A stretch of 64,000 nt of DNA from Psychrobacillus sp. NEAU-3TGS (GTDB taxonomy: Bacteria; Bacillota; Bacilli; Bacillales_A; Planococcaceae). The notes beneath the pieces are model-generated. The model ran no database searches and had not been told where the DNA came from. It saw nothing but the letters and a program-made list of their open reading frames with translations. A program made the position numbers and the translations under genes. Shown here in pieces: positions 183 through 59,916 of the stretch. The DNA lies in the NCBI RefSeq assembly GCF_029955155.1, contig NZ_JAPNOZ010000012.1, positions 1 to 64,000 on the forward strand. The letters are read 5' to 3'. The first letter of the stretch is position 1. Each line of letters opens with the position of its first letter.

Positions 183-320
183 TCAAGCTAACGGGTGCTT
201 TAGCAAAATCTGGCCATCAATTCGATGGTCTATTTTTATGTTCAAAACATTAAGTTGATCGCAGATATGTATTGTGAAATGTTACACTTAAACTAAAGGT
301 GCAGGTTAGTTGAAGAGTGT
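183..320 (+). repeat. Dispersed palindromic repeat, type A, near full length
   Basis: This copy begins GCTAACGGGTGCTTTAGC and holds the hairpin GGCCATCAATTCGATGGTC followed by TATTTTT. It ends GCAGGTTAGTTGAAGAG. It lies directly downstream of plsY. The following stretch (321-628) shows no convincing gene, only the terminator-like hairpin at 550. Confidence 0.85.
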
Positions 321-549
321 TGTTTAACTTGTGTTAAACAATAGGGCCATATTGTTTAATAACAATTATTATACAAAGTAAGTATTGTGGAGGTTTACAC
401 CTTAACTATTTGGTAACGGTAAATGCAGATTTACAACAATATGCAATTTTGGTTAGAACTGTTGTAATTACATTTCCTTCTGAGAAATTAGGGATCATTA
501 GTCGAATAAGTAGTCTTAAAAGCGACCTGACCTACCTACAAAATTTTTT

Positions 550-580
550 GGAACAATCTGATAAGAGATTGTTCCTTTTT
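550..580 (+). terminator. Rho-independent terminator-like hairpin
   Basis: A perfect 10-bp stem (GGAACAATCT / AGATTGTTCC) with a 6-base loop is followed by TTTTT. No clear + strand gene precedes it, so it may insulate the sigma-factor operon from upstream transcription or end an unrecognised short RNA starting in 330-545. Confidence 0.6.
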
Positions 581-629
581 CTACGTATACTCTAGAATAC
601 AGACGGTCATAAAAAAATATATTTTTTTC

Positions 630-654
630 AAACCGAATGAAGGATAGCCTCGTC
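630..654 (+). promoter_or_regulatory. ECF-sigma-type promoter, probably autoregulatory
   Basis: An AAACC box at 630-634 and a CGTC box at 651-654 are separated by 16 bases. This is the AAC-N16-CGTC layout of Bacillus ECF sigma promoters. It lies about 30 bases before the ATG of an ECF sigma gene, the usual arrangement for positive autoregulation. The motif is seen directly; recognition by the downstream sigma factor is inferred. Confidence 0.6.
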
Positions 655-683
655 TAAGATATATGAGGGGGTGACACAACGAG

Positions 684-1235
684 ATGAATGAACTAAACCA
701 ATTGGCGGTGACAGATGAAATGATGCTGGATGAGCGTGAGCAGATCATTGATCAATTAATGCGTGAATATAGCGATGATATCCTGCATCTTGTATATACA
801 TATGTAAAAAACCGAACTATTGCAGAAGATTTAGCACAAGAGATATTTATAAAGTGTTTTGAAAAATTAAATCAATTTAATCAGCAGTCAACAATAAAAA
901 CTTGGCTATATCGCATTGCGAGCAATCATTGCAAGGACTATTTAAAAAGCTGGCATTATCGCAAAATAATGCTTAACAATAAAATATTTGACCATATCCC
1001 TTCTAAGTTGAAACAGGTGGAAGAGGAGGTTATCAAGCATAGTGAAGAAAATAGCTTAACGAATGCCGTCATGAATTTGCCTATAAAGTACAGAGAAGTC
1101 GTATTTCTCCATTATTATGAAGAACTGTCTTTAAAAGAGATAAGCAAAATTACTTCAGTAAATATAAATACATTAAAAACGAGATTAAAGCGTGCGAAGG
1201 AATTATTAAAAGACAAGATGATAGAGGAGGTATAG
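684..1235 (+). CDS. ECF-type RNA polymerase sigma factor
   Basis: This 183-residue protein has the two-domain ECF plan. Region 2 covers about residues 30-95, with YVKNRTIAEDLAQEIFIKCF in the core-binding helix. Region 4 covers about 125-180, with LPIKYREVVFLHYYEELSLK and the recognition helix TSVNINTLKTRLKRAKELL. A GGGGGTG ribosome site precedes the ATG by about 10 bases. It is the first gene of a tight three-gene operon, with a 3-base gap to the next gene. An ECF-like promoter lies just upstream. No classical transmembrane anti-sigma factor follows; the next protein may carry the anti-sigma role in its short N-terminal segment. The envelope-stress role is inferred from the FtsW-like third gene. 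Confidence 0.88.
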   Translation: MNELNQLAVTDEMMLDEREQIIDQLMREYSDDILHLVYTYVKNRTIAEDLAQEIFIKCFEKLNQFNQQSTIKTWLYRIASNHCKDYLKSWHYRKIMLNNKIFDHIPSKLKQVEEEVIKHSEENSLTNAVMNLPIKYREVVFLHYYEELSLKEISKITSVNINTLKTRLKRAKELLKDKMIEEV

Positions 1236-1238
1236 AAG

Positions 1239-1661
1239 ATGAATGATCCGTTAAAGAACCTGAAGAGTTCGATGGAAAAATCAATTTTCAAGGATTTTTC
1301 TTTTTCTAATGAAAGAAAAAATGCAGTGCGAGAAACCATTCGTACGAATCAGCAAGCACAATTTCATATAGAGACCATAATAGCTATATTAGAATCTGTT
1401 CAGTATGAATCAAAGGATGGCTACAATATTTCCGTTCAACTTTTTCAAAAAGATGAACGTACTTTCCAAAAAAATGAAGGGCAGCTTTATACACTGCTGC
1501 ATCTATTAGAAAATAAAGAAATACTTACTTCAAATTGGTTAAATAACAAGAAATATTATTCCCTAAACTCTAAAGGAAAAAAATACTTAGCTACTTATAA
1601 AAAAGATACCGATAAACAGGGGTTATCCCTTAATCCCTTCATAACGGAGGCGTCCTTATGA
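1239..1661 (+). CDS. PadR-like winged-helix protein with a sigma-associated N-terminal segment
   Basis: This 140-residue protein starts at an ATG preceded by GAGGAGGT. Residues 1-30 (MNDPLKNLKSSMEKSIFKDF...) look like the short N-terminal stretch of small regulators encoded next to ECF sigma genes. Residues about 40-125 match a PadR-type winged helix: an early helix, YNISVQLFQ, EGQLYTLLHLLENKEILTS, then a YYSLNSKGKKYL wing. It lies between the sigma gene and an FtsW-like gene, with its stop overlapping the next start. It may modulate the sigma factor or autoregulate the operon. The exact role is unknown and the assignment rests on overall pattern. Confidence 0.7.
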   Translation: MNDPLKNLKSSMEKSIFKDFSFSNERKNAVRETIRTNQQAQFHIETIIAILESVQYESKDGYNISVQLFQKDERTFQKNEGQLYTLLHLLENKEILTSNWLNNKKYYSLNSKGKKYLATYKKDTDKQGLSLNPFITEASL

Positions 1662-4272: not shown

Positions 4273-4500
4273 GACGCAAATGCTCAAAATAGTATTGATG
4301 AAAATATTATTATTGCAGATACAGACTATAATATTATTTGGTTAAATTCATACGCTAGACAATCACTTAATTAAATAGCTCCTTTATATGGCTTTTCCAA
4401 CTCAGATGACTTAAATGGCTTGAGCTAGGATTTCTTTCATAAAGAACCTTCTTACCAGCGCAATGAGATAATCCTAACTGCACTTTATTCTAGTATTTTT
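4273..4500 (+). pseudogene. Relic of a PAS-domain sensory protein
   Basis: One frame reads DENIIIADTDYNIIWLNSYA and later DFFHKEPSYQRNEIILTALY. This is the pattern of a PAS domain as found at the start of Bacillus STAS/PAS signalling proteins. It has two in-frame stops (after RQSLN and after NGLS) and no start, and it runs straight into the repeat copy at 4502, where the rest of the gene is missing. It is non-functional. The repeat marks the truncation point. Confidence 0.55.
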
Positions 4501-4501
4501 T

Positions 4502-4588
4502 ATTCAACTAACGGGTGCTTTAGCAAAACATGGCCATCATTTCGATGGTCTATTTTTTTGTTCAAAACATTAAGTTGATCTCTGATTT
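4502..4588 (+). repeat. Dispersed palindromic repeat, type A, right end missing
   Basis: The copy begins ATTCAACTAACGGGTGC and contains GGCCATCATTTCGATGGTC plus a T-run and AACATTAAGTTGATC. It then loses similarity. It abuts the PAS relic. Confidence 0.85.
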
Positions 4589-4700: not shown

Positions 4701-4769
4701 CTTCTTCAACTAACGGGTGATTTCTTCAAGAAGGGGTAAAGCCATAAAGGGGCAGGTTAGTGAAGAAGA
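4701..4769 (+). repeat. Dispersed palindromic repeat, short type B variant
   Basis: Both ends are present (CTTCTTCAACTAACGGGTG and GGCAGGTTAGTGAAGAAG). The inner hairpin is degenerate (TTCTTCAAGAAGGGG) and the usual U-rich linker is missing. Confidence 0.8.
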
Positions 4770-4991: not shown

Positions 4992-5136
4992 CCTTCTTCA
5001 ACTAACGGGTGCTTGAGCAAAACATGGCCATCATCTTGATGGTCTATTTTTATATCGAAAACATTAAGTTGATCACAGATATGCCTTGTGAAATGTTACA
5101 CTTAAACTAAAGCAGCAGTTTAGTTGAATAAGAAGG
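4992..5136 (+). repeat. Dispersed palindromic repeat, type A, complete
   Basis: This is one of the best full-length copies. The left end is CTTCTTCAACTAACGGGTG. The inner hairpin is GGCCATCATCTTGATGGTC with TATTTTT. The linker is AACATTAAGTTGATCACAG and then TTGTGAAATGTTACACTT. The right end is GCAGTTTAGTTGAATAAGAAG. Confidence 0.9.
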
Positions 5137-5282: not shown

Positions 5283-5354
5283 CTCCGGAGGTAGGACTTG
5301 AACCTACGACCAACCGGTTAACAGCCGGTTGCTCTACCACTGAGCTACTTCGGA
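5283..5354 (-). tRNA. tRNA-Asn (GTT)
   Basis: The minus strand folds as a cloverleaf: TCCGAAG acceptor, GCTCAGTGGTAGAGC D-arm, anticodon loop CTGTTAA (anticodon GTT), and GTAGGTTCAAGTCCTAC T-arm. It differs from housekeeping tRNA-Asn in two ways. Acceptor position 5 is A opposite C68, a mismatch, and no CCA is encoded (the 3' flank is TTATTA). It is a lone gene rather than part of an rRNA-linked tRNA cluster. Confidence 0.9.
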
Positions 5355-5678: not shown

Positions 5679-5887
5679 TACTGTTCACCTCCTTGACCAT
5701 ATTAGTGTTGCCTAAAAGGCTAGAAAAATACTCGATAGTTATAAAAAACAACTAACACAAACGGATGGCGAACTGCAATTTTGAAATTGTATATCTAGAC
5801 AAAAAATAAATTGGATACTTCCACACTTTTATTATCAAGCTAATCAGTATAGAAGTCAGAGGCTTTTGGAATATGAGGAGTGTTCAC

Positions 5888-6151
5888 ATGACAACAAAAC
5901 CATACGGTAAATCAGCAAACAACCTAGTCCATATTAATCGAATGACGATTGCTGAGTTAGAGATAGCAATTGCTGATTTAGAAGCGAGAGGTTATGAGCT
6001 TGTAAAACGTGATGATATAGAAACGGTTAGCGATGTGAAGGATTATCATTACCGCGATAATATCGGTGCTAAATGGAAATTTAGTGGTAGCTCAGAAAGT
6101 TTGAAACGATGTAGTGCGACGATGAAACGGGCTGTACCTTATGTGAAGTAG
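5888..6151 (+). CDS. Conserved hypothetical protein, 87 residues
   Basis: The start at 5888 is chosen because GAGGAG lies 7 bases before it; an earlier in-frame ATG at 5873 overlaps this ribosome site. The product begins MTTKPYGKSANNLVHINRM, then has a predicted helix (TIAELEIAIADLEARGYELV) and a basic C-terminal part (KWKFSGSSESLKRCSATMKR). There are no membrane segments and I recognise no named domain. It is a soluble, monocistronic gene. Confidence 0.65.
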   Translation: MTTKPYGKSANNLVHINRMTIAELEIAIADLEARGYELVKRDDIETVSDVKDYHYRDNIGAKWKFSGSSESLKRCSATMKRAVPYVK

Positions 6152-6242
6152 TTTTATGAAGAATGCAAAACGAAAATTTGAAAGCCGCTGTTAAATTAAA
6201 AGTGGATGGAGTACAACAGAAACATATAAAGTGTAATAAGAA

Positions 6243-6275
6243 AATTAAAAAGGGCATTCAAATATAGAATGCCCA
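6243..6275 (-). terminator. Terminator of the DUF3231 gene
   Basis: GGGCATTC / GAATGCCC with a 7-base loop is followed on the minus strand by TTTTTAATTTTC. It begins 9 bases past the stop at 6284. Confidence 0.8.
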
Positions 6276-6283
6276 GTGAATTA

Positions 6284-6796
6284 TTACTCTTTATTTGGTG
6301 AATTTAAATGTAGTGGTGGTGGAACAAGCCAACCCTTCTCCTTGTTTAGTCGCAATAGTTTTGCACCTAATTGTGCTTTGTTCAAATGGAATTGACCGTA
6401 CATCAAAGCAATATCTTCTCTGATGCATTGTCCCATTGCCTGACTACATGCGACTAAACCAGCCGCGCTATCAATCGAGAGAGCAGCACTGATTTCAGGA
6501 TCGTTAAATCGTGCGCCAACAGGTATGTCTTCTAGATTTGCAAGTGGACGTTCTGGAGGTGAGGGTGGTAGTCCTATACCATCAGTTTTTAATATCCCTT
6601 CAATCTGTTTATTTTCGTCTTTCATACATTGAATCGATTCTTCAATAATCTTTTCTAGATCTTTATCTCCAGTGTGATTAGCGAAGGTTTGATATGCAGC
6701 TATTAACCCGTTGTTTGTAGCTAGATTAGTCCATAATGCAAATACTTCGCCGTAATGTAACGGATTGTCCTTTGGATTACCATTTAAAATTCCCAT
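6284..6796 (-). CDS. DUF3231 family protein
   Basis: This 170-residue protein starts at MGILNGNPKDNPLHYGEVF, with AAGGAGTT just upstream of the ATG at 6796; the open frame extends further but without another ribosome site. It is a helical, ferritin-like-looking protein with the family motifs PLHYGEVFALW, GLPPSPPERP and GIDSAAGLVACSQAMGQC-like spacing (here SIDSAAGLVACSQAMG). The family is widespread in Bacillales spore formers and its biochemical role is unknown. It is a single-gene unit with its own terminator. About 290 bases upstream lies a truncated IS110 transposase relic. Confidence 0.8.
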   Translation of the reverse strand: MGILNGNPKDNPLHYGEVFALWTNLATNNGLIAAYQTFANHTGDKDLEKIIEESIQCMKDENKQIEGILKTDGIGLPPSPPERPLANLEDIPVGARFNDPEISAALSIDSAAGLVACSQAMGQCIREDIALMYGQFHLNKAQLGAKLLRLNKEKGWLVPPPLHLNSPNKE

Positions 6797-6939
6797 AATT
6801 GAACTCCTTATCATCAATAATATTTTCTTAAACAAAACTATTATGCGTGAAAGTAAGAAAAGTATTCGTATTCGGGTGGCTGTAAACAATAATTAATGTA
6901 CCGCCATCGAAAAAGCGACGTTATCAAAAAAGACCTTTT

Positions 6940-7090
6940 TCAAGGTCTAGTTAGTCTTATTTCACTATTCACATATTCGCGTATGATAAGTAACTCAATT
7001 ATATCTTGAGATGAATTTGAATGAGGGGAATGATCAGGAAGAAGATCATTAAACTGCCTAACTAAGTCATTAGGGGTTTCCACATAAAAT
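6940..7090 (-). pseudogene. C-terminal fragment of an unidentified protein
   Basis: On the minus strand about 50 codons read FYVETPNDLVRQFNDLLPD, then SSQDIIELLIIREYVN and a stop at 6940. The composition looks protein-like (amphipathic helices). Upstream the frame runs into the IS110 relic, so the gene lost its 5' part there. I cannot name the family, and it may also be chance. Confidence 0.3.
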
Positions 7091-7450
7091 TGAATTAGAA
7101 GATTACAAGATTGTCCATTCGATTCCAGGAATCGGAGAAAAAATCGCTGCCACGATCATCTCTGAGATTGGTGAAATCGATCGGTTTAGTCATCCGAAAA
7201 AGCTAGTTGCTTTTGTCAGAGAGTGGATCCTAGTGTCATCCGGAAAGTTTACTGCAACAAGCAAACGTATTTACTAAAAAGAGGTTCAAATAGATTACGC
7301 CATGCTTTGTATCTTGCCGTATGGTTCGGTATCAGAAGTACATGAAACAAGAAACTGAAAGAATTCTATGATAAAAAGAAATCAGAAAGAAAGCCTGCAA
7401 AAGTGGCGATAGTAGCCTGCATTAACAAACTGCTTCATTGGATTTATGTA
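7090..7450 (+). pseudogene. IS110-family transposase relic (C-terminal part)
   Basis: Several frames together read IVHSIPGIGEKIAATIISEI, GEIDRFSHPKKLVAFV, then KRGSNRLRHALYLAV and AKVAIVACINKLLHWIYV. These are the C-terminal Transposase_20 motifs of IS110/IS1111 elements (PGIG helix-hairpin, SGK..KRG.R.LR..L). The N-terminal DEDD half and intact ends are absent, and stops and frameshifts interrupt it. It is a dead remnant. Confidence 0.75.
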
Positions 7451-7579
7451 ACATAGAATTAATTATAATTTTAAATAAAAAGACTGACATCCTATTAGCT
7501 AGTTTAGTAAGAGAAAAGCATCAAAATACATGGAGCTTGGAGAAACATTTCCTCGCTCATTTTTTATATGCTTTTTAAA

Positions 7580-8734
7580 TTAACCTTTACGTTCTAGTTT
7601 TCGATATACAAGCGCAATTAACATTGCTGGCAGGGTACAAACTATCATGCCGATAAAGGCATATCTTGGCTCAACTTCGTATAAATAGCCTCCTAAAATG
7701 GTAAACAGTGCTGTACTCCAGCTAAGTGCAAGCGTTGAATATATGCCTTGGGCTTTCGAAACTTGTGCTTGTGAGATGTTGTTGATAATGTATCTCATAA
7801 AGGCATAATGCGCCATAGCAAACGAGAATGCATGCAAAATTTGTGCGACACTGAAAACAATTACATTTGGAAAGGCAAACACTAATATCCAGCGAATGGA
7901 AGAACCAATAGCTGCTAATGTTAATAAAGTGCCAACTGAAAATTTGCTAAATCGTTTATCTGCTATTGAGAAGAATACAATTTCTGAAATCACAGCAATG
8001 TTAATAATGAGACCAATTAGGTATATTGGTGCGTGAATATCTTGTAGAAAAATATAGCCATAATTGTAATAAGTGGCATGTGCTGCTTGCAGTAAAACGA
8101 CAATCATGAGTACTAAACCAAAATGTTTGATACGGAATAAATGTAACATGCCGACTTCTTGTGTTTGGTCTACTTGCGGTTTTTCAGATAAAATACCAGG
8201 TGCACTCATAAAACCAAGATACACAAAACCAATTATCCCAAGAAATAGTGCCCAAAAAATAACTCCATCCCCAAACATCCCCGTAAAAATGGTTAAAATC
8301 AAGCCGACTGAGACAAAACCAATAGATCCCCATTGACGACTTCTTCCATAGTGTCTTAGTTGTTTACTTTGCAAAAGGACACTGGCAGCACTTTCTAAAG
8401 TAGGCATCAGAGCTGGATAAAATAAGTGTAAAAAGATGGTTACTATTAGTAGACCAGCAAAGGAGCTTGTCGGAATATAACAAAGAAGTGCAACCAGTGT
8501 GCCGATTCCAGCCATTATTAATAAGATTTTACTGCTAAATCTCCCCGATAAATAAGGAAATGCAAATAATGTGGACATGCCTCTTGCAATTAAACCGAAA
8601 CTCATAATCAAGCTAGCTTGTGACACGGTAATTCCTTTTGTATAAATCATCCACCCTGACCAAAAAGGTAGAAAAATGCCCCATGTCAGAAAAAAACTAA
8701 AAAAACGTATACTCATCCAGCGTTGTGCGTTCAT
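7580..8734 (-). CDS. MFS transporter, 3-phenylpropionate-transporter-like (PPP/YwbF type)
   Basis: This 384-residue, 12-helix major facilitator protein starts at MNAQRWMSIRFFSFFLTWG, with GAGGGGGAA upstream of the ATG at 8734. The N-terminal motif FLTWGIFLPFWSGWMIYTKG and the RQWGSIGF sequence after helix 4 are typical of the HcaT/YwbF group. The protein would be a plasma-membrane proton symporter; the substrate is unknown. It is divergent from a Crp-type regulator with 82 bases between the starts, and a 20-bp perfect palindrome lies in that gap. The regulator therefore probably controls it. Confidence 0.85.
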   Translation of the reverse strand: MNAQRWMSIRFFSFFLTWGIFLPFWSGWMIYTKGITVSQASLIMSFGLIARGMSTLFAFPYLSGRFSSKILLIMAGIGTLVALLCYIPTSSFAGLLIVTIFLHLFYPALMPTLESAASVLLQSKQLRHYGRSRQWGSIGFVSVGLILTIFTGMFGDGVIFWALFLGIIGFVYLGFMSAPGILSEKPQVDQTQEVGMLHLFRIKHFGLVLMIVVLLQAAHATYYNYGYIFLQDIHAPIYLIGLIINIAVISEIVFFSIADKRFSKFSVGTLLTLAAIGSSIRWILVFAFPNVIVFSVAQILHAFSFAMAHYAFMRYIINNISQAQVSKAQGIYSTLALSWSTALFTILGGYLYEVEPRYAFIGMIVCTLPAMLIALVYRKLERKG

Positions 8735-8783
8735 TTTTATTCCCCCTCGTTGAATACATGGTATCATGTAAAGAAATATGAAT

Positions 8784-8803
8784 AATATGAGATATCTCAT
8801 ATT
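8784..8803. promoter_or_regulatory. Perfect 20-bp palindrome between divergent transporter and regulator genes
   Basis: AATATGAGAT and its exact reverse complement lie back to back, 13 bases before the regulator ATG and 50 bases before the transporter ATG. Its size and symmetry suit a dimeric Crp/Fnr-type operator, although the half-site does not match the Crp TGTGA or Fnr TTGAT consensus. Function is inferred. Confidence 0.55.
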
Positions 8804-8816
8804 TTCGAGGTGGAAT

Positions 8817-9488
8817 ATGGAAGTTTACAAAGATGAAAAAAAAAGAATATATTTGGAAAATAACTCAATAGCATATTTATTTGGTTTTCAAGTTGATGAA
8901 TTTATAGAGGTACATGAATATCAACGAGGTGAATGGATTATTCAAGAGGGAATGAGACCGGATTTTTTATTTTATGTAATGGAAGGAGCAGCTAAAATAT
9001 ATATAACACATCAAAATGGGAAAGTATCCTTAATTAATTTTATCAGTGCCAATGATTACATTGGGGAAATGGAATTATTAAATGATGTGTATTATACAAA
9101 GGGGATTCAAGCATCAACGAAGACCATTTGTTTTGCACTTCCATTTTATCGATATCGCACACAATTAATGGAAGATGCAAAATTTTTACGTGAATTAACC
9201 AAATTTTTAAGTGTAAAAGCTACACTTAGGGCAGCAAAGTATTCGCAAAGCCTTGCTTTCCCGCTTGAAAATCGGCTTGCGGATTTTATATTGCAAACTG
9301 CAGATGAAGGGATATATAAGGAGAAACACATAACTGTTTGTGATTATTTAGGTGTATCCTATCGCCACTTATTGCATGTACTTAAGCAATTTTGCGATAA
9401 AAATTACTTGCAAAAGGAAGGGCGTAACTATCAAATTATACATTACGATTCCTTGTATAAACTTGCCGAGGTTTTGAAGCATAATTGA
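8817..9488 (+). CDS. Crp/Fnr-family transcriptional regulator, YeiL-like
   Basis: This 223-residue protein has a cyclic-nucleotide-binding-type beta barrel (about residues 20-120; RGEWIIQEGMRPDFLFYVME) and a C-terminal Crp-type helix-turn-helix (about 145-215; ENRLADFILQTADEG, HITVCDYLGVSYRHLLHVLK). The YVMEGAAKIY segment and overall layout resemble the YeiL/CarD-like Crp subgroup. The ATG at 8817 follows GAGGTGG closely. An upstream ATG at 8778 would place the palindrome inside the gene and has no ribosome site. It probably regulates the divergent MFS transporter and itself. Confidence 0.85.
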   Translation: MEVYKDEKKRIYLENNSIAYLFGFQVDEFIEVHEYQRGEWIIQEGMRPDFLFYVMEGAAKIYITHQNGKVSLINFISANDYIGEMELLNDVYYTKGIQASTKTICFALPFYRYRTQLMEDAKFLRELTKFLSVKATLRAAKYSQSLAFPLENRLADFILQTADEGIYKEKHITVCDYLGVSYRHLLHVLKQFCDKNYLQKEGRNYQIIHYDSLYKLAEVLKHN

Positions 9489-10438: not shown

Positions 10439-10490
10439 ATTGTGAAGGGTTACACTTAAACTAACGCGGCAGTTTAGCTGAATAAGAAAG
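10439..10490 (+). repeat. Dispersed palindromic repeat, right half only
   Basis: This is the right-hand module TTGTGAAGGGTTACACTT, AAACTAACGCGGCAG and TTTAGCTGAATAAGAAAG. The left half is absent. Confidence 0.8.
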
Positions 10491-11960: not shown

Positions 11961-11993
11961 AACCTTTACTTTAAACTCATTTATGTTAATAGC

Positions 11994-12110
11994 ATCTTCA
12001 ACTAAAAGACCATCATTTAGATGGTCTATTTTTACGTTTTAATAATTAGGTAAATTTCAGCTATCCATCGTGAAATGTTACACTTAAACTAACGAAGCAG
12101 TTTAGTCTAA
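11994..12110 (+). repeat. Dispersed palindromic repeat, type A with shortened left end
   Basis: ATCTTCAACTAAAAGACC runs directly into the hairpin GACCATCATTTAGATGGTC plus a T-run. The ACGGGTGCTTTAGC module is missing. The right end reads TGAAATGTTACACTT and CGAAGCAGTTTAGTC. Confidence 0.85.
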
Positions 12111-12510
12111 TCAGGATTGACAGTAGGGCTGCGAGGTACAAAAGCGCTGGAGGCTTATTCAGCCACAGCATTGCATGGAAGAAGGAGTGATGCAGTATTG
12201 TAGAGTTGTAGTTGAAATAATGCCATAGGTGTACGAATCGGTGAATTATCCTCATAAAAGAGGAAGAATAAAAGAGTTAGTCCAGTGTGGAGACCACATG
12301 CCCAGGCACTAATCCTGCCCAGCGGAAACTTAATACCGAACAGTTAAAACAAGCTACGATGCATTGCTCCAGCACAACACGTAGGTGTACATCCGACTCT
12401 AATTGCGGGTCGGCTAAAGTAAGTTTATGTCAGTCTAGTAATAACACCCAGAACAGTGCATACCGGGTAGAAAAGTGAGTGTCCGAAGAATAGCAAATGA
12501 CCATATTCAA
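12111..12510. other. Unexplained segment of higher GC, no convincing reading frame
   Basis: This stretch is clearly richer in G and C than its flanks and has short pairing elements such as GTGTGGAGACCACA (12278-12300) and a CCGACTCTAATTGCGGGTCGG hairpin near 12390-12410. Short frames on both strands look like noise. It could be a decayed structured RNA (for example a group II intron domain) or an acquired non-coding block. I cannot identify it from sequence alone. Confidence 0.35.
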
Positions 12511-13921: not shown

Positions 13922-14040
13922 TAAAACATCTCCTTGTATATCAAACACAACTGAACATTATCTCTCACAATCGTAATTTCCTTATTTTTTCATTTTTAAT
14001 TGATAATAGAGTCTTTTTAGACAATAGTTGAGAATCATTT

Positions 14041-14120
14041 CACTTAAACTACGGGTGCTTTACTTTTAAAAAAGTAAAGCCTTTTTTCTTCAACTAACGA
14101 AACAGGTTTGTTGAAGAAGG
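14041..14120 (+). repeat. Dispersed palindromic repeat, type B
   Basis: CACTTAAACTACGGGTGC is followed by the hairpin GCTTTACTTTTAAAAAAGTAAAGC, a CTTTTTTCTT tract and the right end ACAGGTTTGTTGAAGAAGG. The 14121-14272 gap holds nothing else. Confidence 0.85.
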
Positions 14121-18465: not shown

Positions 18466-18589
18466 TTCACTAAAAGCAATCCTCAAGAGGTAAGAATTGC
18501 TCATTTGTTAATTAAATTAAAGATTTGAGTTAGTGAAAGAAGGGTAAGTTGAAGTCCAGTCAATATTATAAGGTTTGTGGAAGGTTTGA

Positions 18590-18672
18590 CTTAAACTAGC
18601 GGGTGCTTTACTTCGAGAAGGAGTAAAGTCTTTTTTCTTCTTGAACTAAAGCGGCAGTTTAGTTCAATTAGG
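18590..18672 (+). repeat. Dispersed palindromic repeat, type B
   Basis: CTTAAACTAGCGGGTGC leads into the hairpin GCTTTACTTCGAGAAGGAGTAAAG with TCTTTTTTCTT. The right end is AAGCGGCAGTTTAGTTC. The rest of the 18466-18792 gap shows no gene. Confidence 0.85.
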
Positions 18673-19272: not shown

Positions 19273-19311
19273 GTACGTTATGAAGATTAGGTGGAACAGA
19301 GTGAAAGTTGC

Positions 19312-19397
19312 TTATTCAACTAGCAGGTCCTTTAGTTTGAGTTCATTGAGTTGCTAAGGCAGCTCTTTTTCTCATTGCGCTGACGGGACAGGTTAGT
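19312..19397 (+). repeat. Dispersed palindromic repeat, type C
   Basis: ATTCAACTAGCAGGTCC is followed by the inner hairpin GAGTTGCTAAGGCAGCTC with TTTTTCTC and the right end GACGGGACAGGTTAG. The hairpin sequence is unrelated to types A and B. Confidence 0.7.
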
Positions 19398-19462
19398 ATT
19401 ATGTGAAATATCCTTCTGTTCTTATGATAAATAGTATAAATGAATAGTGGCTTGGAGGTGGA

Positions 19463-19846: not shown

Positions 19847-20071
19847 ATGCTGAAAATATTAAGAATTATCTCATCATTTATTACTTTCGCATTAGCAGGA
19901 TATAGCCTTATTACTAAGAACTTTGAATTTATGCCATATATGCTTTTGTTCTTATGTGTGTCTGTTTTCGTTACGGGGGTTTTGGAGCTAAAAGCAAAAC
20001 GGAAAACAAGGGCGATAATTTCTTTCCTTGCAGTAGCATTTGCATTTTTTGTCGTCATTTATGCTTATTAA
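19847..20071 (+). CDS. DUF3953-type small membrane protein (YczI-like)
   Basis: A 74-residue protein starts at the ATG after GGAGGGAGAAAAA. Three hydrophobic helices are evident (LRIISSFITFALAGYSLI, FMPYMLLFLCVSVFVTGVL, AIISFLAVAFAFFVVIYAY) with a short basic turn (ELKAKRKTR). This is the DUF3953/YczI layout of unknown function. A repeat copy begins at the last base of the stop codon. Confidence 0.75.
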   Translation: MLKILRIISSFITFALAGYSLITKNFEFMPYMLLFLCVSVFVTGVLELKAKRKTRAIISFLAVAFAFFVVIYAY

Positions 20072-20158
20072 GCTAACGAGTGCTTTAGCAAAACAAGTGG
20101 CTGCCTATAAGGGTAGCTTTTTCTTATTGAACTTACAGTGCAGTTTAGTGGAAGAAGG
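20071..20158 (+). repeat. Dispersed palindromic repeat, type D hairpin
   Basis: AGCTAACGAGTGCTTTAGC is followed by the inner hairpin GCTGCCTATAAGGGTAGC with TTTTTCTTATT and the right end GTGCAGTTTAGTGGAAGAAGG. It immediately follows the DUF3953 stop, so it would act as that gene's terminator. Confidence 0.85.
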
Positions 20159-23480: not shown

Positions 23481-23481
23481 A

Positions 23482-33894: not shown

Positions 33895-33988
33895 AAGCGG
33901 GAGTTTTTATGTCGCATTATACTCATTATGTGTAATGGAATAAAAGGCGAAAAAATTACGCCTGTATCTTAAATAGTAAAAAATGTTT

Positions 33989-37689: not shown

Positions 37690-37698
37690 AAAAATTTA

Positions 37699-37782
37699 TT
37701 CTTCAACTAAATGGCGCTTTACTTCAAGAAGGAGTAAAGTCTTTTACCTTATTAAACTTACGCCGCAGTTTAGTTCGATAAG
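37699..37782 (+). repeat. Dispersed palindromic repeat, type B, complete
   Basis: TTCTTCAACTAAATGGCGC is followed by the hairpin GCTTTACTTCAAGAAGGAGTAAAG with TCTTTTACCTTATT and the right end CGCCGCAGTTTAGTTCG. Confidence 0.88.
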
Positions 37783-38659: not shown

Positions 38660-38727
38660 TTCCTACAATAAGTAGGGGCGTTTTTCTTATTCTACTTGAA
38701 CTAATGCGGCAGGTTAGTTGAATAAGG
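38660..38727 (+). repeat. Dispersed palindromic repeat, type F hairpin
   Basis: The hairpin CGTTCCTACAATAAGTAGG, closing with GGCG, is followed by TTTTTCTTATT and the right end TGCGGCAGGTTAGTTGAATAAGG. The left ACTAACGGGTGC module is missing. It lies 15 bases after the methyltransferase stop and probably ends its transcript. Confidence 0.75.
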
Positions 38728-38777: not shown

Positions 38778-39650
38778 TTGCATATAGATAATGAAATAGC
38801 ATTAGAATTAATGGAGTTTGGTAAATATGATCTTTTGGGTTTGGCGGAACTTTCCAGCTCAGTTGGCTGGGACTATGATGAATATGAAATCAGAACTGTT
38901 ATGTCATCTGGTAAAATATTCGGACATAAAAATGCTGTGGGGAAAATTATTTCAAGTGCTGCAATAATACCTTATGATACTGATTTAGCTTCAATTGGTA
39001 TGGTAATTGTTAATGACGAATATAGAGGTTTAGGTTTAGGAAAAAAAGCTACCCAGAAATGTATAGACAGTGTTTCTCAAAATACCACTATAATGTTAAT
39101 TTCAACTGAGGATGGAAAACCCTTATATGAAAAATTGGGCTTTATTACAGTCGACTCTGTACATAAGTATTTAACTGATAACTATATTCCATCTAAAATG
39201 TTTAATAATCAACTAGCAATTACCATAGAGACATACCGTGAGAATGATATTAATGAAATTATTGAATTAGATTCGGCTGCATTTGGTAATAAGAGAAGAA
39301 AATTACTAATTAACAGAATAAATCAATCTAAAAAATGCTTAGTTGTTAGAAATTTAAAGGGGAAGATTATTGGATTTGGATTATCCATATTAGGTCCAGT
39401 AAATTTATTGATAGGACCTATTATAGCACCAGATGCACAAACAGCTTTTTTAATAATTAATGAGTTAGTTCTTAATCATCAAGGAAAACTAAGGATTGAT
39501 GTGCCATCCAGTAATGATGAGTTAATGTTGTTCTTGGAGGAAAGTGGATTTGTAAACGTTAGTAATCCTCCAGTAATGATAAAAAACGCTAATAATATAC
39601 CAAATAGGAATAAAGAGTTGTTTGCTATAACTGCACAAATCTTTGGTTAG
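38778..39650 (+). CDS. Tandem-domain GNAT acetyltransferase
   Basis: About 290 residues. A TTG at 38778 follows GGGGGG; an ATG at 38742 is in frame but lies next to the repeat and lacks a ribosome site. The N-terminal GNAT domain has IGMVIVNDEYRGLGLGKKAT and PLYEKLGFI. The C-terminal part (about 155-285) is the second, Acetyltransf_18-like domain (GPIIAPDAQTAFLIINELV, FVNVSNPPVMIK). The substrate is unknown. Confidence 0.88.
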   Translation: MHIDNEIALELMEFGKYDLLGLAELSSSVGWDYDEYEIRTVMSSGKIFGHKNAVGKIISSAAIIPYDTDLASIGMVIVNDEYRGLGLGKKATQKCIDSVSQNTTIMLISTEDGKPLYEKLGFITVDSVHKYLTDNYIPSKMFNNQLAITIETYRENDINEIIELDSAAFGNKRRKLLINRINQSKKCLVVRNLKGKIIGFGLSILGPVNLLIGPIIAPDAQTAFLIINELVLNHQGKLRIDVPSSNDELMLFLEESGFVNVSNPPVMIKNANNIPNRNKELFAITAQIFG

Positions 39651-39701
39651 GGATAGCAATATCCTTATTCGGCTGCTTTAGTGTAAGAAAAATAAATAAG
39701 A

Positions 39702-39735: not shown

Positions 39736-39861
39736 AAGTTAAATTTAGTTTAATACGCCTCAAGACCTAGCTCAATATAATTCTTAGGTTCATTACTAGG
39801 AATTCCTCTACGCACTAAGATGGAATCAAGAAGTATAAAGGTTATAGGAGGGGTGAAAATA

Positions 39862-40845: not shown

Positions 40846-40866
40846 AACCCAATAGTAATATCTTTT

Positions 40867-41004
40867 TTCTTCAATATAGGATACTTTCGTAAAACGAGAT
40901 CATCATTCCGATGGTCTTTTTTTATTTGAAACATCAAGTAGAACTCAGAAATCCATTGAGAATTATTACACTTAAAACTAACGCAGCAGATTAGTTGAAG
41001 AGAA
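40867..41004 (+). repeat. Dispersed palindromic repeat, type A, complete
   Basis: TTCTTCAATATAGGATAC (a diverged left end) is followed by the hairpin GATCATCATTCCGATGGTC with TTTTTTTAT, CATCAAGTAGAACTCAG and the right end CGCAGCAGATTAGTTGAAG. Confidence 0.85.
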
Positions 41005-41220: not shown

Positions 41221-41560
41221 TCACATATAATAAATGCTTTTATTATTAGAAGTAGCATCGAAAATATCCATTTTGTAAGTTGGATTCTTACTCAGGTATC
41301 CTTCTTCATGTGACCAACAAAAAAATGATCTCAAAAAGCGAATATGATGTGCAAGACTTGCTGCTTTTAAATGCTTGCAGGATTTTGCAAGATACTTCTT
41401 TAGTTGATTTGAATCCAGCAATTCTATCTCTACATCCTAAAAATAACCAATTAGTAGTAAAGACTGTAACTGATAGGCCATCAACGTTTGCGGCGAAAAG
41501 CCTTCTATTCGTTTATCCGCTTCAAACGAAGCCCATGTTTTTGACAGTAGCAATTTCATT
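41221..41560 (-). pseudogene. Tyrosine recombinase relic (N-terminal SAM-like domain)
   Basis: On the minus strand LLSKTWASFEADKRIEGFSP, QTLMAYQLQSLLLIGYF, a stop, then LDSNQLKKYLAKSCKHLKAA and RFLRSFFCWSHEEGYLSKNP follow the core-DNA-binding domain of phage-type integrases. The catalytic domain (R-H-R-Y) is absent. It is non-functional. Fragments on the + strand on either side (41064-41220) are unassignable. Confidence 0.6.
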
Positions 41561-41886: not shown

Positions 41887-42005
41887 CTTCTTCTTCAACT
41901 AACAGGTGCTTTAGTTAAACAAAAGCATTAAAAAAATGATGGTTTGTTTTATATACCTTGTGAAAGGTTACACTTAAACTAGGGTGCAATTTAGTTGAAG
42001 AAGAA
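41887..42005 (+). repeat. Dispersed palindromic repeat, type A variant
   Basis: CTTCTTCTTCAACTAACAGG and TGCTTTAGTTAAACAAAAGC, then a weakened hairpin (AGCATTAAAAAAATGATGG), CTTGTGAAAGGTTACACTT and the right end GTGCAATTTAGTTGAAGAAG. Confidence 0.85.
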
Positions 42006-44071: not shown

Positions 44072-44168
44072 TATTCTTCAACTAACGGGTGCTTTAGCAA
44101 AACATGGCCATCATTTTGATGGTCTATTTTTATTACCATAACATCAAGTAGATCTCAGAAATCCATTG
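44072..44168 (+). repeat. Dispersed palindromic repeat, type A, right end missing
   Basis: ATTCTTCAACTAACGGGTGC is followed by GGCCATCATTTTGATGGTC with TATTTTTAT and CATCAAGTAGATCTCAG, ending at TCCATTG. Confidence 0.88.
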
Positions 44169-44401
44169 TTTTTCCTCCGTTTTTCATAGTTATCTATGTC
44201 CTTAACGTAGAAAGTTCTTATACCGTTAAGAAAGAAGAATTGTTGGTACATCATGTTCAAATAATGGAGAAAACATCATATTAATCATCGCCTTTCCAAT
44301 TACATTTTTTTACTATATATTAAATTTAATAGTTTTAATATCAGTGATTTATTATGTTTAACTGCTAAAGAATACAGAATATGCAATGAAAGGGAAGTTT
44401 A

Positions 44402-44486
44402 TTATTCAACTAGCGGGTGCTTTACTTCAAGAAGGAGTAAAGCCTATTTCTAATTTAACTAAAGCGGCAGTTTGCTTGAAGAAGGA
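44402..44486 (+). repeat. Dispersed palindromic repeat, type B, complete
   Basis: TTATTCAACTAGCGGGTGC is followed by GCTTTACTTCAAGAAGGAG closing with TAAAGC, a CTATTTCTAATT linker and the right end AGCGGCAGTTTGCTTGAAG. Between this and the previous copy lies only a short hydrophobic fragment (44270-44360, ENIILIIAFPITFFYYIL...). Confidence 0.88.
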
Positions 44487-45575: not shown

Positions 45576-45587
45576 ACTTCGCTTTTG

Positions 45588-45618
45588 TTCTTCAACTAAC
45601 GAGGTGCTTTAGTTGAAT
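45588..45618 (+). repeat. Dispersed palindromic repeat, left-end fragment
   Basis: GTTCTTCAACTAACGAGGTGC and TTTAGTTGAA only. It follows the GNAT stop. Confidence 0.75.
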
Positions 45619-45667
45619 TTTCGACTTCCGAAATAATTAATCTTTAATAATAGCAACAAACAGGTAA

Positions 45668-51156: not shown

Positions 51157-51241
51157 GTTCTTCAACTAGCGGGTGCTTTACTTCAAGAAGAGTAAAGCAT
51201 TTTTGCTTATTGAACTAACGGGGCATTTTAGTTTAAGAAGG
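51157..51241 (+). repeat. Dispersed palindromic repeat, type B, complete
   Basis: GTTCTTCAACTAGCGGGTGC is followed by GCTTTACTTCAAGAAGAG closing with TAAAGC, ATTTTTGCTTATTG and the right end CGGGGCATTTTAGTTTAAG. A further left-end scrap (ATTCAACTAAAGGGGG) lies at 51326. Confidence 0.88.
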
Positions 51242-52107: not shown

Positions 52108-52152
52108 TTCTTATTAAGCTAACGGTTGCTTTAGTTAGAAAAAGACTATCAT
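52108..52152 (+). repeat. Dispersed palindromic repeat, left half, split by an IS
   Basis: TTATTAAGCTAACGGTTGC, TTTAGTTAGAAAAAG and ACTATCAT stop at the left end of the IS3-type element. The matching right half resumes at 53274. Confidence 0.8.
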
Positions 52153-52205
52153 GGTGCTGCACCCCAAAAGTAGAGTAATAAATCTAACTTTTGGGGTGTT
52201 TTTAT

Positions 52206-54435: not shown

Positions 54436-54581
54436 ATTCTTCTTCAACTAAAGGGTTCTTTAGCAAAATATGGCCATCATTTTGATGGTCAATTTTTTAT
54501 GTTCAAAACATTAAACTGATCTCAGATATGCGTTGTGAAATGTTATACTTCAACTAAAGATGCAGTTTAGTTGAATAAGAG
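54436..54581 (+). repeat. Dispersed palindromic repeat, type A, complete
   Basis: TTCTTCTTCAACTAAAGGG, the hairpin GGCCATCATTTTGATGGTC with AATTTTTTAT, AACATTAAACTGATCTCAG, GTTGTGAAATGTTATACTT and the right end ATGCAGTTTAGTTGAATAAG. The 54118-54435 gap is otherwise empty apart from a modestly GC-richer patch at 54280-54320. Confidence 0.9.
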
Positions 54582-55092: not shown

Positions 55093-55257
55093 ATGTTTTA
55101 CTATGAAATAGTTTGTTGTAGTTGTAGATAAAAATTCAGAGTATATGAAGGTTCACTAAAATTAAACTATACAAAGAAGAACGAATAAGGTCTTTCATTG
55201 TGAAGACTGCAATTCCAAAATACGCATGGATGCAATTAAAAACTTCTTTAGATACTT
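55093..55257 (+). pseudogene. Relic of a small zinc-ribbon protein
   Basis: After AGGAGG the frames give MFYYEIVCCSCR, a stop, KFRVYEGSLKLNYTKKN, a stop or frame change, then SFHCEDCNSKIRMDAIKNFF. Two C-x-x-C pairs frame a DUF2197-like layout. It runs into the repeat copy at 55254. Confidence 0.5.
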
Positions 55258-55344
55258 AAACTAACGGGTGCTTTAGCAGAACAAGGCTGGCAGCATACAG
55301 CATTTATTCTTATTCAACTAAAGGGGCAGGTTAGTTGAATAAGA
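55254..55344 (+). repeat. Dispersed palindromic repeat, type E hairpin, complete
   Basis: CTTAAACTAACGGGTGC and TTTAGCAGAACAAG, the inner hairpin GCTGGCAGCATACAGC with ATTTATTCTTATT and the right end GGGGCAGGTTAGTTGAATAAG. Confidence 0.85.
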
Positions 55345-55364
55345 TAACAAAAGGGGTGTTTTTT

Positions 55365-56117
55365 TTGGAAAACCAATATACATGTCGTTTTGATATAGAT
55401 TATAGAAACGGAGATGCTGAAATTAAATTAAATGGAAATGGTCAAGATATCTATTTTAAATTTATGATTGCATTCGTTTCAATACCTTCGTTTTTCTCTG
55501 TACTTTTACAGCTATGGAATGGAAAAACGAACAAAACTGAAATAGACGGGTTCGGTTTTGCGGTGAGATATTATTTAACTGTAGAGGAGAAAAATCTATG
55601 TATTGATCGTCTTACTTTTAAAAATGGGCAACCCATTTTTTACAATTATAAATTTGATTTTGAGAGATTTGCTAAAGCATTAGATAAAGGATTTTCTGAG
55701 TATCTTCAAGAACAAAGGAATAAAGGAATACTTCCTCTTAAAGTTGAAGAACATACTCACCCCTTATCGAAGCAAGTAATTAAAGAATATGAAGAATTCT
55801 CGACCATCTTCAATGAGGGTAAATTAAATACTATTAGGATATTGGGATTAGAGGAGGCGGAAGGTAATATTTTGCTAGGTGATTCTCATGCAAGTTTCTT
55901 TCTAAACTCTGAAAAGGAAGGTATGCAATTTATCATAAAAAGCGATTACAAAAGAGATTATAAACTGGGTATGTTTGTTATATGCTACCGTGGAGAAGGA
56001 ATAGAAGAAACAGTAGTACAAACAGTATTTGAAGATATGGTAGATGCGATTAATTGTGTAGAGTTACTGGTTCACAGCTTAGAAAATGGTTATGGTAAAG
56101 ATACATTAGGTCTTTAA
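55365..56117 (+). CDS. Hypothetical protein, about 250 residues
   Basis: A TTG at 55365 follows AAGGGGTG and gives MENQYTCRFDIDYRNGDAEI. The in-frame ATG at 55335 lies inside the repeat and lacks a ribosome site. The protein is soluble with mixed strands and helices: an N-terminal beta-rich half, a central FDFERFAKALDKGFSEYLQE helix, and a C-terminal QFIIKSDYKRDYKLGMFVIC with VFEDMVDAINCVELLVHSLE. I do not recognise the family. It sits between two repeat copies like the other single-gene units here. Confidence 0.65.
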   Translation: MENQYTCRFDIDYRNGDAEIKLNGNGQDIYFKFMIAFVSIPSFFSVLLQLWNGKTNKTEIDGFGFAVRYYLTVEEKNLCIDRLTFKNGQPIFYNYKFDFERFAKALDKGFSEYLQEQRNKGILPLKVEEHTHPLSKQVIKEYEEFSTIFNEGKLNTIRILGLEEAEGNILLGDSHASFFLNSEKEGMQFIIKSDYKRDYKLGMFVICYRGEGIEETVVQTVFEDMVDAINCVELLVHSLENGYGKDTLGL

Positions 56118-56249
56118 AAGAGGAGTAAATTTCAGTTTACGTGCGGATAGGTAGGATGAAATTATTGTTAAAACTAGTCCAAATAGAAAAGAATAGTGAA
56201 AGATTAAGAAGACATAGTTCGATTATTATGTGTAATAAAAGAGAAGTTG

Positions 56250-56338
56250 CTTATCAAATAACGGGTGCTGAACTTCCAGAAGGAGTAGAGCATGCATTTT
56301 TTCTTATTGAACTAAAGCAGCAGGTTAGTTGAACAAGG
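56250..56338 (+). repeat. Dispersed palindromic repeat, type B variant, complete
   Basis: TTATCAAATAACGGGTGC, a diverged hairpin (GCTGAACTTCCAGAAGGAG, TAGAGC), ATTTTTTCTTATTG and the right end AGCAGCAGGTTAGTTGAAC. Confidence 0.85.
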
Positions 56339-56887: not shown

Positions 56888-56937
56888 CATTGTGAAGGAT
56901 TGCACTTAAACTAACGGGTGCTTTAGTAAAAAACAAT
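56888..56937 (+). repeat. Dispersed palindromic repeat, fused right/left fragment
   Basis: TTGTGAAGGATTGCACTT (normally in the right half) runs straight into AAACTAACGGGTGCTTTAG (left half). This looks like recombination across the shared AACTAACGGG word. Confidence 0.8.
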
Positions 56938-58506: not shown

Positions 58507-58661
58507 CATTGTGAAGATTTTCACTTAAACTAACTGGTGCTTTAGTTAAACAAGAGCATCATTTCGATGTTCTATTTTTTTATCCAAAATATTGAGTAGA
58601 CATCAGAAATCCATTGTGAAATGTTACACTTAAACTAACGGGGCAGTTTAGTTTAAGACGG
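58507..58661 (+). repeat. Dispersed palindromic repeat, type A, complete with extra right module
   Basis: TTGTGAAGATTTTCACTT and AAACTAACTGGTGC, TTTAGTTAAACAAG, the hairpin GAGCATCATTTCGATGTTC with TATTTTTTTAT, then CATTGTGAAATGTTACACTT and the right end CGGGGCAGTTTAGTTTAAG. In the stem the usual GACCATC / GATGGTC has become GAGCATC / GATGTTC, which keeps most pairs. Confidence 0.88.
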
Positions 58662-58717: not shown

Positions 58718-58816
58718 ATGGATATAAAATTAAGTGCAGAGATATACAGAATAAGTGTTTCAATAGGACTTCTAACCATCCAAGATATTATGCTAAGAAA
58801 AAATAAAGTCGTTTAA
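58718..58816 (+). CDS. Possible short reading frame, 32 residues
   Basis: MDIKLSAEIYRISVSIGLLT... starts after AGGGGTTTACTG and stops after RKNKVV. Only the ribosome site supports it. Confidence 0.25.
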   Translation: MDIKLSAEIYRISVSIGLLTIQDIMLRKNKVV

Positions 58817-58853
58817 TTTTGAAGTGTTAAACATGCATAAATACCTTCTAAAT

Positions 58854-58893
58854 AAAAAAACAAGCTCCCAATAAAATTGTTCGCTTGTTTTTT
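58854..58893 (-). terminator. Terminator of the following minus-strand gene
   Basis: AAACAAGC / GCTTGTTT with an interior loop has a T7 run on the minus strand. It lies 30 bases past the stop at 58924. Confidence 0.75.
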
Positions 58894-58923
58894 GTACCCT
58901 TACATTTAAAAGGGAGATAACAT

Positions 58924-59313
58924 TTAGTTAATGAAATTTTGAGGAATACATTCACGAACACCAGAATTTCTCAATGAGTTAAATAAAGCTGCACTGATTC
59001 TTAAAAGAACAAAGTTATCAGTGCCATTTTCTAATTCATAGATTACAAAGTATGAATTATCGACTGTAAAAATACATTTTCGTTCTAATTCAAATCCAGG
59101 TGGTACAGTAGGAAGATTAAAACGTGGTACAACTACAGGTGTATCTCCTTCATCTCTGATAAAATTGAAAGTTTGTTGGTCAATCTCATAGATATTAACT
59201 GGATCAATCTCCACGCCTTTTTCTGGAATTGTAATTTCATCTTCAACTAATAGGAAAAAGCGTTCGTTTCGAAAATTGAAAATACCTCTCGCCCCAATTT
59301 CAAATGATGCCAT
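58924..59313 (-). CDS. Hypothetical protein, 129 residues, strong ribosome site
   Basis: AAAGGAGGTGAAAATAAA precedes the ATG. The product MASFEIGARGIFNFRNERFF, LLVEDEITIPEKGVEIDPVN, VVVPRFNLPTVPPGFELERK and YFVIYELENGTDNFVLLRIS is beta-rich and soluble without cysteine pairs. I do not recognise the family. The sigma-K-style strong ribosome site and context would fit a spore protein, but that is a guess. Confidence 0.65.
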   Translation of the reverse strand: MASFEIGARGIFNFRNERFFLLVEDEITIPEKGVEIDPVNIYEIDQQTFNFIRDEGDTPVVVPRFNLPTVPPGFELERKCIFTVDNSYFVIYELENGTDNFVLLRISAALFNSLRNSGVRECIPQNFIN

Positions 59314-59508
59314 TTTATTTTCACCTCCTTTCTTATATATAAGTTATTCGTATCGAATACAATTGCTTGGACAATAAGGAAGGTAGAGTGAAGAAGAGAA
59401 AAAAAACATTCATAGTAGTTGTTACAGCATGACTGCTAAAGAAGCAAACGTTGAATACATGGAAGTTCTTTAGTTTCGATCGTAAGAAGATAATCCTCAA
59501 AATAGATA

Positions 59509-59582
59509 TTAATAAAGTTGTTTAAAATTGGACTATATAGCCCTTATAATTTAGGGTTCACCCTTTTAAACAACTTTATTAA
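59509..59582. repeat. 74-bp element with 19-bp perfect inverted ends
   Basis: TTAATAAAGTTGTTTAAAA at 59509-59527 is exactly complementary to 59564-59582. The 36-base centre contains a smaller stem (AGGGT / ACCCT). It could be a hairpin terminator, a very small MITE or a binding site. It does not share the dispersed-family ends. No gene is visible between 59314 and 59764. Confidence 0.7.
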
Positions 59583-59764
59583 GATGGAACAGATGTATGA
59601 TGAGTGGATGTAAAAAAAGATACAGGAGTGATTACACTAAATTTGAATTAACGCAAAACGACTGAAAATCGGTTGTTTTCGATCGAGTTGAACTTGAATA
59701 AAGTGTAGTTTTGTAAAAAAGCTAGATTTTATATTGGAAATTTATGTTACGATTACTATAAAGA

Positions 59765-59916
59765 TTGTGAAGGAATGTACTTAAACTAACTGGTGCTTTA
59801 GCAAAATATGGCCATCATTTCGATGGTCTATTTTTATGTCCACAACATTAAGTAGATCTAAGATATGCATTGTGAAATTGTTACACTTAAACTAACAAAG
59901 CAGTTTTGTAAGTAGG
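59765..59916 (+). repeat. Dispersed palindromic repeat, type A, with extra right module at its left
   Basis: TTGTGAAGGAATGTACTT and AAACTAACTGGTGC, the hairpin GGCCATCATTTCGATGGTC with TATTTTTAT, AACATTAAGTAGATCTAAG, TTGTGAAATTGTTACACTT and the right end AAAGCAGTTTTGTAAG. Confidence 0.88.

Follow-up and report, generated by a model that had tools for sequence, protein, structure and literature searches.

What are the short, self-complementary repeats that lie between the genes of a 64,000-nucleotide stretch of Psychrobacillus sp. NEAU-3TGS (contig NZ_JAPNOZ010000012.1, positions 1 to 64,000; here called the window), and why are they so numerous? A first-pass annotation had counted about 35 copies and likened them to miniature inverted-repeat transposable elements (MITEs) or to repetitive extragenic palindromic (REP) elements, and they are probably neither. 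Judging from sequence comparisons within this genome and among its relatives, we think it very likely that the repeats serve as recombination sites in large arrays of gene cassettes moved by an Xer-type recombinase. Each copy would comprise two simple sites of the tyrosine-recombinase type, L and R, that flank a terminator-like hairpin, and the recombinase, encoded antisense between its own L and R, would join R with R and L with L.

Anatomy, strand, and distribution of the sites

The repeat family is real: a position-weight scan found 49 L or R modules above 10 bits in the window, compared to 2 in the reversed control. The inverted ends as first quoted are present, and CTTCTTCAACTAA occurs 51 times with up to 2 mismatches against 3.7 expected, and 0 of 100 shuffles reached 51. 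About 35 copies is a fair estimate once single and decayed modules are counted, and the complete L-middle-R copies number 14. Long copies (type A) were recovered at 4993-5132, 54439-54579, and 59777-59915 (R damaged), and short ones (type B) at 18587-18671, 37698-37782, 44401-44484, and 51157-51240, all within about 12 bases of where they had been placed. As for self-folding, z values for nine strands folded as RNA were -1.4 to -7.4 relative to shuffles. Two properties had escaped the first-pass annotation: the copies share one strand, and their middles come in distinct length classes (about 34, 43, and 88 nt) that are mostly terminator-like hairpins. By strand, 47 modules of the window are on + and 2 on -, one of the two - matches (45587) being a near-symmetric site. 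An Rfam search of the window at the gathering score returned nothing but one tRNA, the repeats matching no Rfam family, and phage records searched with a type A copy gave no match. The sites and related features of the window are as follows.

179-318, + strand: L-middle-R site, type A (about 88-nt middle)
4499-4587, + strand: L and type A middle, R not found
4701-4769, + strand: short L-middle-R site with an 18-nt middle
4993-5132, + strand: L-middle-R site, type A
10461-10486, + strand: single R module
11993-12114, + strand: type A site, L shortened
14040-14119, + strand: type B site, L damaged
18587-18671, + strand: L-middle-R site, type B (34-nt middle)
19311-19405, + strand: L-middle-R site, 44-nt middle
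20064-20157, + strand: L-middle-R site, 43-nt middle
23475-23611, + strand: type A site, decayed
33812-33895, + strand: site with damaged L
37698-37782, + strand: L-middle-R site, type B
38692-38726, + strand: single R simple site (arm, 9-bp spacer, arm)
39742-39747, + strand: position of comparison E7 (see below), where locus L051 of P. lasiicapitis is 2.5 kb longer, with one site; the right-hand break is in an R-like core
40864-41003, + strand: type A site, L decayed
41269-41559, - strand: broken piece of the array-linked recombinase (residues 1-97 with one stop; 80% identity), on the strand opposite the sites
41890-42003, + strand: L-middle-R site, 63-nt middle
44073-44169, + strand: L and type A middle, R not found
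44401-44484, + strand: L-middle-R site, type B
45587-45621, + strand: isolated site, both arms strong, hairpin middle absent
51157-51240, + strand: L-middle-R site, type B; genome G005 (P. lasiicapitis) is 1.3 kb longer here, with an R-R junction
52110-52134, + strand: L module, no R found downstream
54439-54579, + strand: L-middle-R site, type A
55252-55343, + strand: L-middle-R site, 41-nt middle
55335-56114, + strand: example of a single open reading frame (ORF) between two sites; its listed start overlaps R, and the true start may be further in
56249-56337, + strand: L-middle-R site, 38-nt middle
56902-56926, + strand: single L module
58521-58660, + strand: L-middle-R site, type A
59777-59915, + strand: type A site, R damaged

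Three side observations belong with this inventory. A tRNA gene (5283-5354, - strand) lies just downstream of the site at 4993-5132. At 52110-52200, what may be the end of an insertion sequence (TGCACCCC..., with a small ORF) lies no more than about 25 bases past the L module and seems to have cut the site. A 94-bp direct repeat (71%) at 36873-36966 and 39567-39660 marks the ends of two nearby genes, perhaps paralogues.

Alignment of the copies resolved a full copy into a left module L (consensus CTTCTTCAACTAACGGGTGCTTTAG) and a right module R (consensus CTAA[AC]GNNGCAG[GT]TTAGTTGAAGAAG) on either side of a middle. In complete copies, R-gene-L alternates with L-hairpin-R as two module types, and single modules occur too. 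Inverted arms around a short spacer are the usual form of a tyrosine-recombinase core site, and a search of oriented arrays for this pattern yielded 589 sites, with a spacer of 9 bp in 433 and 8 bp in 133; 566 sites thus have one of these two lengths and 3 have the 6-bp spacer of the dif type. The two lengths divide between the modules of complete copies: R has the 9-bp spacer in 256 of 262 arm-spacer-arm sites (typically CGGGGCAGT), and L has the 8-bp spacer in 77 of 83 (typically CGGGTGCT). Because the spacers of L and R are unlike in both sequence and length, L × R exchange is presumably rare, and because each is asymmetric, a single orientation would be enforced, so that the spacers may well set which sites are compatible.

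Read on the array strand, the middle carries a hairpin and a trailing T-run in 417 of 466 copies, compared to 75 after shuffling. Within one 20-kb array stretch, a separate consensus scan gave 14 terminator-like sites where 7.4 were expected, 9 of which involve hairpins of the middle classes, and a promoter scan of one array stretch showed no excess (84 promoter-like sites versus 95.8 expected). With hairpins that would end transcription in most sites, each cassette should be its own transcription unit and each gene would travel as an insulated unit.

The strand bias extends well beyond the window. In the 4.4-Mb genome as a whole, a 17-base core allowed 1 mismatch has 71 matches and the backwards pattern has 0, and the matches are clustered, with one strand per cluster. 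The four main arrays of this genome hold 207 modules on the majority strand and 5 off it (97 versus 2 for L, 110 versus 3 for R), a count in which the strand of the nearly palindromic R is the higher-scoring one kept at each position. An initial scan with overlaps unresolved gave R matches on either strand (27 and 22 in C16, for instance), whereas the less symmetric L was one-sided even there (98 versus 2 across the four arrays). All 19 Psychrobacillus genomes examined carry the core with up to 1 mismatch, in 3 to 198 matches, compared to 1 match in 1 genome for the reversed control, and in a wider set the exact core is found in 64 of 261 genomes and 8 of 19 genera, with 0 for the reversed control. 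One genome, G009, has 95 complete copies within 220 kb, all on one strand and with one 51-kb gap; in addition, minor clusters of either strand lie at 3.44-3.47 Mb of this genome. Contig 1 of another, G003, has + matches at 0.59-2.02 Mb and - matches at 2.3-4.3 Mb, with one exception, and 12 of 13 array stretches have positive GC skew on the array strand. The array strand thus probably tends to follow replication, an orientation that is also reported for most sedentary integrons (PMC5371416).

A linked Xer-type recombinase

No intact partner gene is present in the window as far as searched, in agreement with the first-pass annotation, although a broken recombinase piece is (41269-41559, - strand). 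A partner gene flanked by the same ends, which that annotation had proposed to look for, does occur elsewhere in this genome and in relatives, and it encodes an Xer-type tyrosine recombinase (PF00589). The genome has one intact copy of 281 amino acids within an array (C11:507123-507968) and five broken pieces, including the one in the window, and all six are on the strand opposite their array; the broken copy at about 492 kb of C11 (genome G000) contains a run of N.

Among 54 recombinase loci, R ends 72-81 bp before the recombinase start in 30, L begins 851-894 bp after the start in 19, and both modules are so placed in 18. Modules opposite the recombinase strand number 614, compared to 18 on it. 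The gene thus typically sits antisense between L and R, with further sites on both sides; 5 of the 54 loci are without any module, and many of the other noncanonical loci are partial or at contig ends. Fifty-one loci are from Bacillales, in Psychrobacillus, Sporosarcina, Lysinibacillus, Paenisporosarcina, Solibacillus, Viridibacillus, Neobacillus, Bacillus, Gracilibacillus, and Salipaludibacillus. The three others (L085, L086, and L087), from metagenome-assembled genomes of Bacteroidetes, match the array-linked recombinase P0001 at 26-33%, have no L or R module, and are possibly unrelated Xer-type enzymes. Three loci (L051, L071, and L080) are of the same genome as G005; these were left out of the hairpin, flank-homology, and spacer counts and kept in the interval-ORF, covariation, exchange-point, filled/empty, and earlier middle-identity sets, and L067 and L085-L087 were left out of the site sets built after the 54-locus count.

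P0001 passes the NCBIfam model NF040815 (XerA, with a label that also says integron integrase) with 225 bits against 220, and it falls below the integron integrase (IntI) model TIGR02249, with 90 bits against a cut-off of 265 and model positions 182-233 unmatched. None of the 14 matches to the IntI model in the genome of the window is above the cut-off. By sequence, the nearest solved structures over most of the length are 4a8e (XerC-like) and 1a0p (XerD). The presumed catalytic tyrosine of P0001, residue 265, is invariant in the sequences compared. P0001 is like XerA, XerC, and XerD in family, but unlike them it has its gene placed between R and L sites, and the genomes examined carry several copies of that gene, most of them broken. 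An AlphaFold2 model built from 11 sequences was poor (mean predicted local distance difference test score, 68.5) and was not used.

The system is also found on a plasmid. On pSP10-266k of Sporosarcina psychrophila (L133, NZ_CP146247.1, 9116-17606), nine modules share one strand and the recombinase, annotated just as a tyrosine-type recombinase/integrase, is on the other, and so cassettes may travel on plasmids. This array of the 266-kb plasmid adjoins genes for a mercury reductase, a NUDIX protein, and a GNAT protein. Two neighboring recombinases, one of them 62% identical to P0001, are encoded at 5873-8840 of the Peribacillus simplex plasmid L134 (NZ_CP011009.1); nearby are one good R module (34.5 bits) and otherwise weak L- or R-like sites, on the recombinase's own strand. 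This is perhaps a sister system with other sites.

Cassette content and movement

Between the sites there is typically one gene. We examined 263 intervals of 200-2000 bp between complete copies, with ORFs called mechanically: 175 have one ORF of at least 70 amino acids, 30 have none, and 58 have more. The largest ORF is sense in 214 of 233 intervals, and the sense ORF has its start a median of 75 bp beyond R and its stop 35 bp short of L. These are single-gene, one-orientation cassette arrays of the kind known from integrons. The cargo was scanned with 120 proteins out of 147 sense ORFs listed from this genome and its relatives. Among the best 25 of 82 families, GNAT Acetyltransf_1 is matched by 15 proteins, and SnoaL, DinB, glyoxalase, NUDIX, and APH-type kinase by two or three each; 14 defense families are matched with one or two members each.

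A gene on one side of a site is seldom accompanied by the same gene on the other side. Where the gene before the site is homologous, 73 of 80 pairs have no detected homology after it and 7 keep the gene; where the gene after the site is homologous, 68 of 75 have no detected homology before it and 7 keep the gene (300-bp flanks). The same single genes, with R on one side and L on the other, are also met in other species beside different neighbors. Comparisons of filled and empty loci revealed gain or loss of cassettes with both junctions in the same module type. In comparison E2, the window is empty at 51215-51232 and P. lasiicapitis is filled by 1.3 kb, with an R-R junction. Comparisons E4, E5, and E6 (1.9, 2.5, and 0.5 kb) also have R-R junctions, each at the R of a recombinase element, and gain or loss is alike possible. 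Comparison E1 (2.4 kb) has an L-L junction, and the preceding gene keeps its L but has another hairpin. Comparison E7 (window 39742-39747) is half-clean, with one break inside an R-like core. Most of the 56 filled/empty rows represent one internal recombinase deletion in L076 or breaks away from sites, and these were left uncounted.

In a position-by-position comparison, exchange mapped to about 14 to 7 bases short of the R end and to about 10 to 23 bases past the L start, in sets of 20, 37, 34, and 15 pairs of which some come from the same genome twice. Exchange points are thus present in both R and L, and with the clean L-L event this differs from the single crossover per site of integrons. 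The hairpins turn over beside kept genes. Among pairs whose genes are at least 95% identical, 12 of 18 share the downstream middle and 9 of 23 share the upstream one (Fisher p 0.12); at 85-95% identity, the respective counts fall to 7 of 35 and 5 of 32, nearer the 10% found for random pairs. This turnover is simply explained by L × L exchange. A strict integron unit, the gene plus its downstream site, had been considered from a first set of 356 sites (7 of 9 downstream versus 1 of 5 upstream at an identity of at least 96%), but the contrast was lost in larger sets, and for this reason we propose both kinds of exchange. Exchange of R with R would gain or lose a gene-L-hairpin-R unit; exchange of L with L would gain or lose a hairpin-R-gene-L unit and would also swap hairpins between genes.

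A 7.5-kb piece of the window matches G005 at 96-98%. In a backbone comparison meant as a control for shuffling, one 7.5-kb piece is collinear in G005, but the array DNA is largely so too, and the comparison, which decides nothing, was not used.

Weighing the explanations, and what the arrays would mean

Several points weigh against a mobile cassette system run by the linked recombinase. With one full-length and five broken recombinases, the array may now be static in this genome, and two presumed host Xer recombinases (31-32% identical) are alternative candidates for the catalyst, a role that we would assign to the linked enzyme. The gain/loss events number five clean ones (E1, E2, and E4-E6) and the half-clean E7, and each breakpoint is placed to within several bases; in the filled E2 copy, neither an L nor a hairpin precedes the right-hand R; and of three array indels examined, two are deletions at chance microhomology and the third is E7 itself. 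The mild contrast between downstream and upstream middles demonstrates no fixed unit of movement.

These points must be set beside those bearing on four other explanations. MITEs and REP elements, including REP doublets forming hairpins (REPINs), are short palindromic intergenic repeats that have ends in common with a recombinase-gene element, and here, too, the recombinase element and the short copies have the same ends, so that the short copies look like gene-less versions of it. L-recombinase-R could accordingly be a small autonomous transposon with nonautonomous short copies, inserted in one orientation through coupling to replication, which would suit the positive GC skew and the strand switch of G003 between 2.02 and 2.3 Mb with its one exception. 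Of the first-pass interpretation, the ends shared with a partner gene stand. However, the copies are crowded in strand-uniform arrays with about one gene each, and the genes between them match other species with breaks at R and L, which with the R-R and L-L junctions makes a MITE family improbable. A search of filled and empty loci for inserts of 40-170 bp holding a site found 0 bare L-middle-R insertions, within limited data and with limited power, so the exact insertions anticipated at orthologous gaps did not appear in the loci compared. As for a REP-type Y1 partner, the linked gene is instead of the Xer type, no separate search for a Y1 transposase having been made. It is extremely unlikely that the repeats merely spread passively and that general homologous recombination between them rearranged the cassettes. 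They are dense, similar, and direct, and a single L-L event could arise in this way, but the shared stretch is just about 25-35 bp and often mismatched, which is short for general recombination. The exchange points lie in the site cores, though conserved cores alone would partly draw them there, and the linked recombinase would be left unexplained.

The arrays resemble those of integrons, and a divergent true integron would have L-hairpin-R as a folded single-strand attC site with one crossover at its right end and the recombinase as an unusual IntI. The anatomy is attC-like, with two simple sites, inverted outer arms, and a variable middle. Sedentary chromosomal integrons (treated in PMC5371416) likewise have one-strand arrays of single genes with a composite two-part site after each gene, a recombinase opposite the cassettes, and gain and loss beside it. 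We nevertheless regard this explanation as unlikely. The recombinase is below the IntI cut-off and lacks a match to part of the model, R × R is joined by L × L, and most loci have sites on both sides of the recombinase, which is therefore not the head of one array. The arms also show no sign of being maintained as pairs: pairing between L and R of one copy does not exceed that of shuffled partners (z -0.1, n=475), nor does pairing between the two ends of one cassette (z -0.1, n=293), and the inner arms reach a z of 1.7. Repeated exchange of arms at each reaction could mask some covariation, and so this result is evidence against a folded site rather than proof; the hairpin of a single copy may reflect just the likeness of its two inverted arms rather than the form that recombines. 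An initial single-hairpin model, attC-like or REP-like, lost its folded-strand part for want of support from the covariation test. Further differences from integrons are the terminator-like hairpin in most sites, the several, mostly broken, recombinase copies within arrays, and the host, a member of the Bacillota. Integrons are reported as extremely rare in Firmicutes, where IntegronFinder 2.0 found one complete integron, in Limnochorda pilosa, and a few CALIN (PMC9024848). The system is integron-like in the form of its array and departs from integrons in the identity of its recombinase, the maintenance of its arms, and the number of crossover points.

Nearest in layout are the dif (pdif) modules of Acinetobacter, which share the alternating module types and the arm-spacer-arm sites (PMC13141974), and the cassettes could by analogy be moved by host XerC/XerD at dif-like sites, with the linked recombinase as a passenger. 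The same source gives dif modules 6-bp spacers, an assumed dependence on host XerC/XerD, inversely oriented sites, and a plasmid setting. The present arrays are mostly chromosomal, have 8- and 9-bp spacers that by inspection are alike between L and R in direct, not inverse, orientation, keep one orientation throughout, and have a recombinase of their own between R and L, which makes this explanation very unlikely. Further literature was drawn on for comparison (PMC8618304 and PMC8138268).

Cassette arrays recombining at L and R remain the explanation that we prefer. What the sequences show directly is the site architecture, the strand bias, the shuffling of genes, the R-R and L-L junctions, and the linkage to the recombinase; catalysis by that enzyme, compatibility set by the spacers, and termination at the hairpins are inferred. 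With less assurance, though we still lean toward it, they may be a separately evolved platform of superintegron scale in Bacillales, in which two incompatible sites allow genes and terminators to be shuffled as separate modules. Among the papers listed in open-access literature searches covering repeats, cassettes, integrons, and Bacillales, none described the system; an earlier account might exist in a preprint or a subscription journal. If the proposal is correct, this group of Bacillales would have its own platform for gene capture, with many tens of cassettes per genome, that is possibly invisible to tools that seek IntI and attC. It would be an independent case of the origin of cassette arrays and would test whether large arrays need single-stranded folded sites. 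It would also constitute a sorted store of small accessory genes to mine and would explain part of the variable gene content of these bacteria.

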